64,000 bases of DNA from Geothrix terrae (GTDB lineage Bacteria; Acidobacteriota; Holophagae; Holophagales; Holophagaceae): NCBI RefSeq assembly GCF_022808775.1, contig NZ_JAKZLA010000005.1, positions 124,001-188,000 of the forward strand, in the 5' to 3' direction. The translations under genes were made by a program, and so were the position numbers. The notes under the pieces were generated by a model. That model saw only the letters and a program-made list of their open reading frames with translations, had not been told where the DNA came from and made no database searches. Below are positions 42,098 to 47,042 of this stretch, piece by piece; position 1 is the first letter of the stretch, and every line of letters starts with the position of its first letter.

Positions 42098-45000
42098 TCA
42101 AGTCAATGCCTGGATCGCCCGCACCTTCATCTCCCCGCGCAGGGTCTCGACGGCTTCGCAGGCGGCGAGGGCGGCGCTGAGGTTGGTGAGGCAGGGGATC
42201 TTCAGGCGCAGGGCCTCGCGGCGGATGGCGCTCTCGTCGAAGAAGGCATCGCGGCCCAGGGGCGTGTTGATCACCCACTGCACCTCGCCGTTCTTCAGGA
42301 GGTCCACCGCGTTGGGCCGGCCCTCGTTCACCTTGAAGATCTTCCGCACCTTGAGGCCCACGGACTCCAGCGTGCGGGCGGTGCCTTCCGTGGCGCACAG
42401 GCCGAAGCCCAGGGCCACCAGCTTGTGGGCCAGCTCCGGCAGGCGGGCCTTGTCCCGGTCGTTGACCGTGAGGAACACCGTGCCCGACAGCGGGAGGGGG
42501 ATGCCCGCCGCCAGCAGGGCCTTGGCGTAGGCCTCACCGAAGCCCTCCCCGATGCCCATGACCTCGCCGGTGCTCTTCATCTCGGGGCCCAGCACCGGAT
42601 CCACGCCCGGGAACTTGGCGAAGGGGAAGACCACGCCCTTGACCGACACGGCGCGGGGCACACCGTCGGTGACGCCCTGCTGCCTGAGGCTCTGGCCCAG
42701 GCCGATGCGGGCGGCCACGCCGGCCCAGTCCACGCCCGTGGCCTTGCTCACGAACGGCACCGTGCGACTGGCCCGGGGGTTGGCCTCCAGGCAGTAGGCG
42801 ACACCATCCTTCACGGCGAACTGCAGGTTCATGAGGCCCTTCACGCCCAGGTCCAGGGCCAGCTTGCGGGCGTAGCCCTTCACGGTCTCCAGGATGTCCT
42901 CGGGCACGCCCAGGGCCGGGATCACGGCGTAGCTGTCGCCGCTGTGGATGCCGGCCTCCTCGATGTGGGCCAGCAGGCCCGCGATGGCCACCTCCTCACC
43001 GTCGCAGACCACGTCGATGTCCAGCTCCTGGGCGCCGTCCAGGAAGCGGTCCAGCAGCACGGGCTGGTCGTTGCTCACCGCCACGGCCTCCCGCATGTAC
43101 TTCTCCAGGCCCTTGTCGTCGAAGACCACGGCCATGGCCCGGCCGCCCAGCACGAAGCTGGGGCGCACCATCACCGGGTAGGCCAGGCGCTGGGCGATGT
43201 CCTTGGCCTGCTCGAAGCTGGTGGCCATGCCCCAGGCGGGCGCGGGGATGCCCAGGCGCTTGAGGGCGCGCCCGAAGCGCTCGCGGTCCTCGGCATCGAG
43301 GATGGTGTTGAGGGGCGTGCCCAGCAGCTTCACGCCCGCGGCGTCCAGGGGCGAGGCCAGCTTCAGGGGCGTCTGGCCGCCGAACTGGGCGAAGACGCCG
43401 AGGAGCTTCCCGCCGGCGGCCTCGCGGTCCACCACGGCCTTCACGTGCTCGAAGGTGAGGGGCTCGAAGTAGAGCCGATCGCTGGTGTCGAAGTCCGTGC
43501 TGACGGTCTCGGGGTTGCAGTTGATGAGGATGGCCTCCACCCCGCTGGCGCGGATGGCCTCCACCGCCTGCACGCAGCAGCAGTCAAACTCCACGCCCTG
43601 GCCGATGCGGTTGGGGCCGCTGCCCAGCACGATGGCCTTGGGGCGGTCCGTGGGTTCCGCTTCGCTGTGATCCTCCCAGGTGCCATAGAGGTAGGGTGTC
43701 TCGGCCTGGAACTCGCCCGCGCAGGTATCCACCCGCTTGTAGGCGGGGCGCAGGCCCAGGGCCTCGCGGCGGGCGGCGACCTCCGCTTCAGTGCCAGAGC
43801 AGAATACGGAGATCTGGTCGTCGGCGAACCCGGCGCGCTTGGCCTTCTCCAGCAGCTCGGCGGGCAGCCGGTCCACGGGGAAGCTGCGCAGGCGGCCCTC
43901 CAGGACGACGATCTCCTCGATCTCCCGCAGGAACCAGGGGGTGATCTTCGTGAGGCGATGCAGTTCTTCGACGCTGTGGCCGGCCTTCAGCGCGTGGTAG
44001 ACCCAGAAGATGCGCTGGGGCCCCGGAATGAGAAGGTGCTCCTTGAGGCGGCCCAGGTCCAGCTTCCCTTCCAGGGCGCCGGAGATGCCTCTGTGGCCTT
44101 CCTCCAGCGAGCGCACGGCCTTCTGCAGGGCCTCCTGGAAGCTGCGGCCGAGGCTCATGACCTCGCCCACGCTCTTCATCTGAGTTCCGAGCACTTTCTC
44201 GGCCTGCGGGAATTTCTCGAAGGTGAAGCGGGGAATCTTCACCACCACGTAGTCCAGCACCGGCTCGAAGGCCGCCTTGGTCATGTGGGTGATGGCATTG
44301 GGCAGCTCCCAGAGCCGGTAGCCCAGAGCCAACTTCGTCGCCACCCAGGCGATGGGGAAGCCGGTGGCTTTGGACGCCAGCGCGGAGCTGCGGCTCACGC
44401 GGGGGTTCATCTCGATGACGATGATGCGGCTGGTCTCGGGCTCCAGCGCGAACTGGATATTGGAGCCGCCCGTCTCCACGCCCACGGCGCGGATGACTGC
44501 AAGGGCCGCGTCACGCATGCGCTGGTACTCGGGGTCCGTGAGGGTGAGCGCGGGCGCGACCGTGATGCTGTCGCCGGTGTGGATGCCCATGGGATCCAGG
44601 TTCTCGATGGAGCAGATCACCTCGACGTTGTCGTCGAGGTCGCGCACCACCTCCAACTCGAACTCCTTCCAGCCCAGGATGCTCTCCTCGATGAGCACCT
44701 GCTTGGTGGGGCTCAGGTCCAGGCCCCGGGCCACGATGGTCTCGAACTCGTCCACGTTGTAGGCGATGCCGCCACCGCTGCCGCCCAGGGTGAAGCTGGG
44801 GCGGATGATGGCGGGGAAGCCAGTGAGCTTGAGCAGGTCGCGGGCCTCGCCCATGTTGTGCGCGAACCCGCCGCGGCAGGTCTCCAGGCCCAGGTCGTCC
44901 ATGAGGGCCTTGAAGAGCTGGCGATCCTCGCCGCGGTTGATGGCCTCAGGCTGGGCGCCGATGAGCATGACGCCCGTGCGCTCCAGCAGCCCGCTTTCGT

Positions 45001-45299
45001 GGGCCTCCATGGCGAGGTTGAGGGCCGTCTGGCCGCCTACCGTGGGCAGGATGGCATCGGGCTGCTCCGCCTCGAGGACCTTCTCCAGCACCGCCAGCGT
45101 GAGCGGCTCGATGTAGGTGGCGTCCGCGCGGCCGGGATCCGTCATGATCGACGCCGGGTTGGAGTTGAGGAGGATCGTTCGAATGCCCTCCTCCCGCAGG
45201 GCCTTCAGCGCCTGCGTCCCCGAGTAGTCGAACTCGCAGGCCTGCCCGATCTGGATGGGCCCCGAGCCCAGCACCAGCACACTCTTCAGATCCGTCCGC

Positions 45300-45307
<8 letters not shown>
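42098..45307 (-). CDS. carB: Carbamoyl-phosphate synthase large subunit
   Basis: CarB makes carbamoyl phosphate from bicarbonate, ATP and ammonia delivered by CarA, for pyrimidine and arginine synthesis. The 1069-residue protein has the two ATP-grasp halves expected. The first starts at [21 protein letters not shown] with [13 protein letters not shown] and [18 protein letters not shown]. The second starts at [20 protein letters not shown] with [13 protein letters not shown] and [20 protein letters not shown]-terminal MGS-like regulatory domain follows (about 930-1069, [13 protein letters not shown]). Full length. ATG at 45307 has AGGAGG six bases upstream and overlaps the carA end by eight bases. 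Confidence 0.97.
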
Positions 45308-46382
<1,075 letters not shown>

Positions 46383-46412
46383 GTGCGTCCCCCGCTCGGC
46401 GGCTCTGCAAAA

Positions 46413-46441
46413 ACCCCGCGGGGGCCGGGCCGCCGCGGGGT
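46413..46441 (-). terminator. Leader terminator (candidate attenuator) of carAB
   Basis: On the minus strand ACCCCGCG (46441-46434) pairs with CGCGGGGT (46420-46413) around a GC-rich centre and runs into a stretch of five T, a textbook intrinsic terminator. It ends 31 bases before the carA start, and no gene ends upstream on this strand. A second small hairpin, GGTCC/GGACC (46457-46469), precedes it. An ORF with GGAG four bases before its ATG (46533) reads through both. PyrR- or translation-linked attenuation is known for pyrimidine operons; the mechanism here is not established. Confidence 0.65.
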
Positions 46442-46586
46442 CGTGAGAATGACATCGGTCCGAAGGACCAAAGTGAGTGTAACGACCTGGGAAACCGAGG
46501 ATCAGCCTTTTTGTTCAAGGGATTTTCGGCCATACTGCTCCTTTGTTCCCCAGATAAATCACGCCGTTTGAGCCACACTGAAACGC

Positions 46587-47042
46587 ATGTGGACGGGTGA
46601 CGACATCTACTTCATGAAGCTCGCCCTCGAGGAGGCCGAGAAGGCGGACCGCCTGGACGAGGTGCCCGTGGGGGCGGTCCTGGTGTCCGAGGGCGCGTTG
46701 CTGGGCCGGGGACACAACCATCCGGTGAAGCTGAACGACCCCACCGCCCACGCGGAGATCCAGGCTCTGCGGGCGGCCGGGGCCTGGGCCAGGAACTACC
46801 GGCTCACGGGCGCCACGCTCTACGTGACGCTGGAGCCCTGCCTCATGTGCTTCGGCGCCCTGATCCATGCGCGGGTGGGGCGCGTGGTGTTCGGCGCCTC
46901 GGATCCCAAGGTGGGCGTCAGCCGCTGGCTGGACACGCTCGATGGCGCGGCCCTGAACCACCGGTTCACGTTCGAGGGCGGCCTGCTGGAGCCCGAATGC
47001 CGGGAGCAGCTCCAGGCCTTCTTCCGGCGGCGGCGGGGCTAG
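46587..47042 (+). CDS. tadA: tRNA-specific adenosine deaminase
   Basis: TadA converts adenosine-34 to inosine in tRNA-Arg(ACG). The 151-residue protein has the zinc deaminase motifs HAE (55-57, with proton-shuttling Glu57) in NDPTAHAEIQALR and PCLMC (84-88), plus the substrate-loop region GASDPKVG. Length is typical. Guanine or cytosine deaminases share the fold, but the DEVPVGAVLV opening and NYRLTGATLYVTLEPC favour TadA. No clear ribosome site precedes the ATG. It diverges from carA and its TAG shares a CTAG with the stop of the convergent gene. Confidence 0.9.
   Translation: MWTGDDIYFMKLALEEAEKADRLDEVPVGAVLVSEGALLGRGHNHPVKLNDPTAHAEIQALRAAGAWARNYRLTGATLYVTLEPCLMCFGALIHARVGRVVFGASDPKVGVSRWLDTLDGAALNHRFTFEGGLLEPECREQLQAFFRRRRG

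Follow-up and report, generated by a model that had tools for sequence, protein, structure and literature searches.

pyrBI-type attenuators combine a leader peptide with a terminator that lies between the promoter and the pyrimidine gene. Attenuation of pyrG relies on G slippage and needs a run of three or more G residues at the start, and pyrC and pyrD are systems in which nucleotides are sensed at initiation, through slippage or start-site choice. The carAB operon supplies both pyrimidine and arginine synthesis through carbamoyl phosphate, and its control is little known beyond a few model bacteria. In E. coli, carAB P1 and P2 are controlled by transcription factors, UTP-dependent slippage and ArgR, and the review passages on this operon mention attenuation only as not involved at P2 (PMC6245113). 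The Polynucleobacter carA (SRC-12-1) motif is described as one extended imperfect hairpin by the ribosome site, a riboswitch candidate for which translational action has been proposed (PMC8632094). We found no report of a Holophagaceae carAB leader in the open-licence literature.

Here we analysed a 64,000-nt stretch of Geothrix terrae DNA (contig NZ_JAKZLA010000005.1), hereafter the window, in which carA lies on the (-) strand (Table 1). No gene ends inside the gap between carA and tadA. The preliminary description had reported a terminator in this gap with no gene to end, and ahead of it a GGTCC/GGACC hairpin; both are present, the former conserved and the latter covarying in relatives. Conserved architecture and covariation also support the attenuator-like terminator that had been claimed for the carAB leader. 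Judging from its sequence, this leader is probably a promoter-proximal transcription attenuator.

Table 1. Features of the carA-tadA region, in window coordinates
Feature	Position	Strand	Remark
carA	45300-46382	(-)	carB next, as open frame 42098-45508
tadA	46587-47042	(+)	divergent from carA
Predicted -35 of carA, CTGATC	46500-46505	(-)	18 nt from -10
Predicted -10 of carA, TACACT	46476-46481	(-)	identity 0.938, 37 Geothrix rows
Predicted carA transcription start, first hairpin G	46469	(-)	from spacing
5'-terminal hairpin GGTCC-TTC-GGACC	46457-46469	(-)	6 nt after -10; helix 1 covaries
Unpaired 16-nt linker GATGTCATTCTCACGA	46441-46456	(-)	identity above neutral sites
Intrinsic terminator, 8+3 bp stem and TTTTT	46409-46440	(-)	helix 2 covaries
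26-nt spacer including carA ribosome site	46383-46408	(-)	longer in 12 Geothrix species (insert)
Predicted tadA promoter, TTTTTG (46508-46513) and CATACT (46531-46536)	46508-46536	(+)	counterparts in other genera
Upstream ORF, 136 codons from ATG 46533	46123-46533	(-)	judged not a leader peptide

The terminator reads CCCCGCGG C GGC CCG GCC C CCGCGGGG TTTTT on the (-) strand. This G+C-rich hairpin and its immediate U-run stand between the predicted promoter and carA, as an intrinsic terminator in a leader does. When the 64 kb were scanned for terminators with relaxed settings, three sites were returned and the carA site ranked first (28.1 vs 17.7 and 16.8). The default promoter/terminator scan of the window reported neither a promoter nor a terminator at the carA leader, the terminator probably being missed because of that scan's loop limit. 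Compared with shuffles, the leader folds with z = -2.79, and 1 of 200 shuffles folds as well.

We examined covariation in 43 distinct leader sequences from relatives. Both sides had changed in 4 of 6 pairs of helix 1 (the 5' hairpin) and in 5 of 11 pairs of helix 2 (the terminator), with 91.1% and 94.7% of cells paired, respectively. Taken jointly, the two helices had 93.4% of cells paired, and both-side changes involved 9 pairs and 28 cells, compared with shuffled means of 3.2 and 6.0; none of 500 shuffles reached either value. When partner columns were slid as a control for both helices, pairing fell to 36-53%. RNAalifold alone predicted the terminator helix only.

Pairwise identity across 37 Geothrix rows was compared with a neutral reference, the 4-fold sites of carA (0.667). 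Identity was 0.90-0.92 in the terminator arms, 0.81-0.83 in the hairpin arms and 0.45 in the hairpin loop. Because this loop ranges from 3 to 6 nt in length, a fixed DNA dyad is disfavoured, and we rejected a reading of the repeat as a DNA operator rather than an RNA hairpin.

A promoter-like arrangement (NTG, 17-19 nt, -10, 5-8 nt, hairpin) was found in 45 of 65 loci vs 23 of 1300 shuffled stretches; locus L017, with its short upstream DNA, was excluded from this count and lacks the region needed for the ORF count below. The predicted carA promoter is weak, with 7 of 12 matches when scored against the E. coli consensus, a point against the attenuator reading. Across genera, the hairpin begins 5-8 nt past the -10, and the predicted start is therefore the first base of the hairpin, a G; the bases there are GGT, GGC or GAT in the leaders compared. 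No sign of a start between the terminator and carA, the result that the preliminary description named as counter-evidence, was seen in the sequence.

Next to its distance from tadA, the leader is constant in length. Of 77 family genomes, 76 gave a carA match at E <= 0.001, several of the matches being short or distantly related proteins. Upstream DNA was taken for 67 loci and 66 were kept, L068 being excluded as a different locus (CarA 41-42% identical). In most loci tadA is divergent from carA, at a distance of 164 to 849 nt. A terminator leader precedes carA in 57 of the 66 Holophagaceae loci, 48 located by pattern search and nine placed by hand via hairpin words read by eye (L048, L050, L051, L052, L060, L061, L062, L064 and L065). 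Leader length, counted from the 5' base of the hairpin through the last U of the terminator run, is 59-65 nt in 55 of the 57 and 48 nt in the other two (g2). In 12 Geothrix loci the interval between terminator and carA is lengthened by an insert of some 40-100 nt (e.g. L010:1380-1500). That leader length stays constant despite the varying tadA-carA distance and these 12 inserts supports the attenuator reading. The architecture, both helices and the constant leader length are conserved.

Automated searches recovered part of this set. The relaxed terminator scan found sites in 46 of the 66 loci, fewer than the 57 identified by locus-by-locus patterns because of its stem, loop and U-run limits. 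A strict composite of -10, hairpin and terminator, applied without the -35, matched 41 of 66 loci and misses several leaders evident by eye. It matched none of 1320 shuffles, 66 reverse complements or 30 stretches beside pyrR (not all of them upstream, the loci being unturned), and within the window it matched 1 of 982 tiles, the carA leader itself. Full-length matches of covariance model R1 fell on carA only, in the genome itself as in the family, where 48 of 77 genomes had them; in one genome (G028) they lay on two carA contigs.

Two further features were seen between terminator and carA. The L010 insert belongs to a dispersed repeat with 7 matches in G000, 6 in G021, 7 in G011 and 2 in G038; the search used this insert alone, and the other 11 are alike by eye. 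Locus L047 (g5) has a second terminator-like hairpin in this interval.

The terminator is absent from 9 of the 66 loci, where it is dispensable: L022, five g9 loci (all read), L059 (g4), and L063 and L067 (g11). These loci still show a predicted carA promoter, which favours the attenuator reading. L022, a Geothrix locus, has lost both hairpin and terminator, yet TACACT remains, 28 nt from the start codon of carA, and L059, L063 and L067 retain a hairpin near the start (L067 by eye). A CarA tree with weak support, built from 35 of the 66 rows and with g11 chosen as the root, calls for a minimum of 4 changes in the terminator and 2 in the start hairpin. The absence of the terminator from these loci and its repeated change count against the attenuator reading. 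In the g9 loci L049, L053 and L056, which lack the terminator, a different common hairpin, GGGGTCATGAGATCCC, lies ~45 nt upstream of carA, after the promoter.

Terminator-like sites ahead of carA occur outside Holophagaceae too. In other phyla, 11 of 76 carA upstream regions hold a terminator-like site, and two of these 11 hold 6S RNA there; thus, terminator-like sites before carA need not be attenuators. The two are Rfam 6S RNA matches directly upstream of carA (L162:1166-1350 and L127:1198-1378, labelled Spartobacteria and Chthoniobacter), and L116 and L126 resemble them by eye. In the sister-family carA leaders (L104-L111), no clear equivalent of the leader was seen by eye. The carA leaders of three loci of sister family f2 (L106, L107 and L109) all contain TTTTCAGCCAGACAA and, ahead of the ribosome site, a GGCGG...CCGCC(TTTCG) pairing, perhaps another carA leader element.

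We infer the start site, termination in vivo and read-through from sequence, and propose the following course of events. Polymerase would start at position 46469, the G that opens the small hairpin, or beside it, and make a leader of ~61 nt comprising the 5'-terminal hairpin, the linker and the terminator. Most polymerase would halt in the U-run at 46409, giving a terminated product of ~61 nt, and carAB would be transcribed by the fraction that reads through. Neither a leader peptide nor a competing antiterminator helix would be involved. Read-through may be fixed, as a throttle, or may be altered by a factor acting on the polymerase or on the hairpin and linker.

The main rival to an attenuator is a small-RNA gene, whose ~61-nt RNA would act in trans while carA is expressed by read-through. 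A 5' stem-loop, an unpaired linker and a terminator are typical small-RNA anatomy, and the leader has all three. Identity in the linker is 0.786 (core 0.828) vs 0.667 at neutral sites in the 37 Geothrix rows, and the 6S RNA upstream of carA in the two Verrucomicrobia records makes a small RNA with a terminator possible at such a place. However, the linker sequence is not maintained in several other genera, the sole copy is at carA, and the promoter kept in loci without the terminator serves carA. We regard a small-RNA gene as unlikely. An attenuator of a minimal kind, with no peptide, no competing helix, the hairpin at +1 and the terminator ending near +61, might also release a stable trans-acting small RNA with a conserved linker as its product; this appears rather improbable. 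If the trans-acting 61-nt RNA were real, it would represent an attenuator type so far undescribed, linking pyrimidine and arginine supply to other genes.

Nucleotides could instead be sensed at initiation, by slippage or start choice that reshapes the 5' hairpin, in analogy to E. coli carAB P1 or pyrC/pyrD. In most genera a hairpin sits right at the predicted start, and this is true of g4 and g11 too, where there is no terminator. However, the stretch between the -10 and the hairpin is near neutral (0.624 vs 0.667, 37 Geothrix rows), no conserved homopolymer run was found at the start, and some starts are GA rather than GG. Neutral bases before the hairpin together with GG or GA starts disfavour slippage, and sensing at initiation is very unlikely. 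We also rejected G or U slippage by eye, as the starts are GG or GA and hold no G run.

Control of the terminator by PyrR, whose sites the preliminary description proposed to look for in relatives, found no support in the sequences. The genome does encode PyrR (G000:C7, 195.7 bits vs a cut-off of 138), in a gene adjoining pyrB. No Rfam hit to the PyrR attenuator element, which we take to be RF00515, reached the gathering score anywhere in the window, and the leader gave none even at E = 10; matches of the leader to other Rfam families were at chance level only (best E 0.14). PyrR was not detected in the g2 and g11 genomes searched, and two of these, from g2, have the hairpin and terminator. 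The antiterminator pairing envisaged earlier did not emerge either: in truncated folds of 10 leaders, no common upstream partner was found for the terminator 5' arm, although these are minimum-energy folds that weak partners could escape. The alternative helix that marks a riboswitch or antiterminator, taking up the terminator 5' arm, was not seen as a common feature of these folds. A PyrR-controlled attenuator is highly improbable.

We rejected the pyrR leader as another instance of the element: it is different and has no terminator. In this leader (L074:1710-1770, G000:C7, pyrR-pyrB), and in several Geothrix, a TAGACT -10 is followed by a short G+C-rich hairpin right before the ribosome site, possibly a translational operator. 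One genome (G047:C28) has two PyrR-like genes above the family cut-off.

An ORF with a good ribosome site had also been noted upstream of carA, and translation-linked control proposed, in which ribosomes on the ORF from ATG 46533 would control the terminator. The frame is indeed open across the terminator and on into carA in another frame, and AAAGGAG..AGTATG or a close variant occurs in 40 of 43 Geothrix loci. The apparent ribosome site, however, is the complement of the bases just past the tadA -10. This -10 is CATACT in Geothrix; the corresponding position in other genera has GATACT, GATAAT or TACAAT, and the tadA -35 is TTGAAT or TTGAAA in most g9 loci and L063. Since an opposite-strand promoter can mimic a ribosome site and start codon, the tadA promoter would be the simpler explanation for the kept block.

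The ORF itself is poorly maintained. Of 39 Geothrix loci, 17 have a frame that runs across the terminator (the terminator ends of L013, L024 and L034 were misplaced by the pattern in this count, with the same verdicts by hand); in 5 of 40 a stop comes as early as codons 4-6, and its length and frame are kept for no more than about 12 codons. In g5 and g7, the frame either closes within 8 codons or has ATC in place of the ATG, and the block itself is kept. The ATG also lies upstream of the predicted carA start, and the conserved carA promoter lies inside the ORF. Over the first 11 codons pN/pS is 0.65, a borderline value that 5% of column shuffles match or undercut (half sample), compared with 0.11 for the first ten codons of carA; this weak coding-like pattern is present but, as the sequences read, is undone by early stops. 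No conserved translated ORF reaches the terminator, as one would in a leader-peptide attenuator. We rejected the ORF as a leader peptide on account of its short stops, the unspanned terminator in most loci and the promoter inside it, and translation-linked attenuation is scarcely credible.

The attenuator reading of the carAB leader thus comes with no leader peptide, no antiterminator partner, no PyrR element and no signs of slippage, and a fixed or factor-tuned throttle is therefore favoured. A fixed or weakly modulated throttle seems slightly more likely than strong control by a factor. Constant in length, with two hairpins that covary and persist across several genera amid sequence turnover, the leader is well suited to testing attenuation that needs no ribosome, riboswitch or known protein.

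As in pyrBI, the Holophagaceae terminator lies between the promoter and a pyrimidine gene; unlike pyrBI, there is no conserved translated leader. As in pyrG, the terminator comes soon after the start and there is no leader peptide, whereas the predicted start has GG or GA and then T or C in place of the G run of pyrG. Like the SRC-12-1 motif, whose function is putative, the Holophagaceae leader is a conserved RNA structure before carA with the predicted promoter upstream and no second promoter (PMC8632094). As described, the beta-proteobacterial motif is set apart from the Holophagaceae leader, in which a terminator hairpin follows a first, separate one (PMC8632094). The operon is the same as E. 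coli carAB, which is controlled at its leader and promoters; unlike E. coli carAB as presented in the review passages, the Holophagaceae leader holds an intrinsic terminator (PMC6245113).
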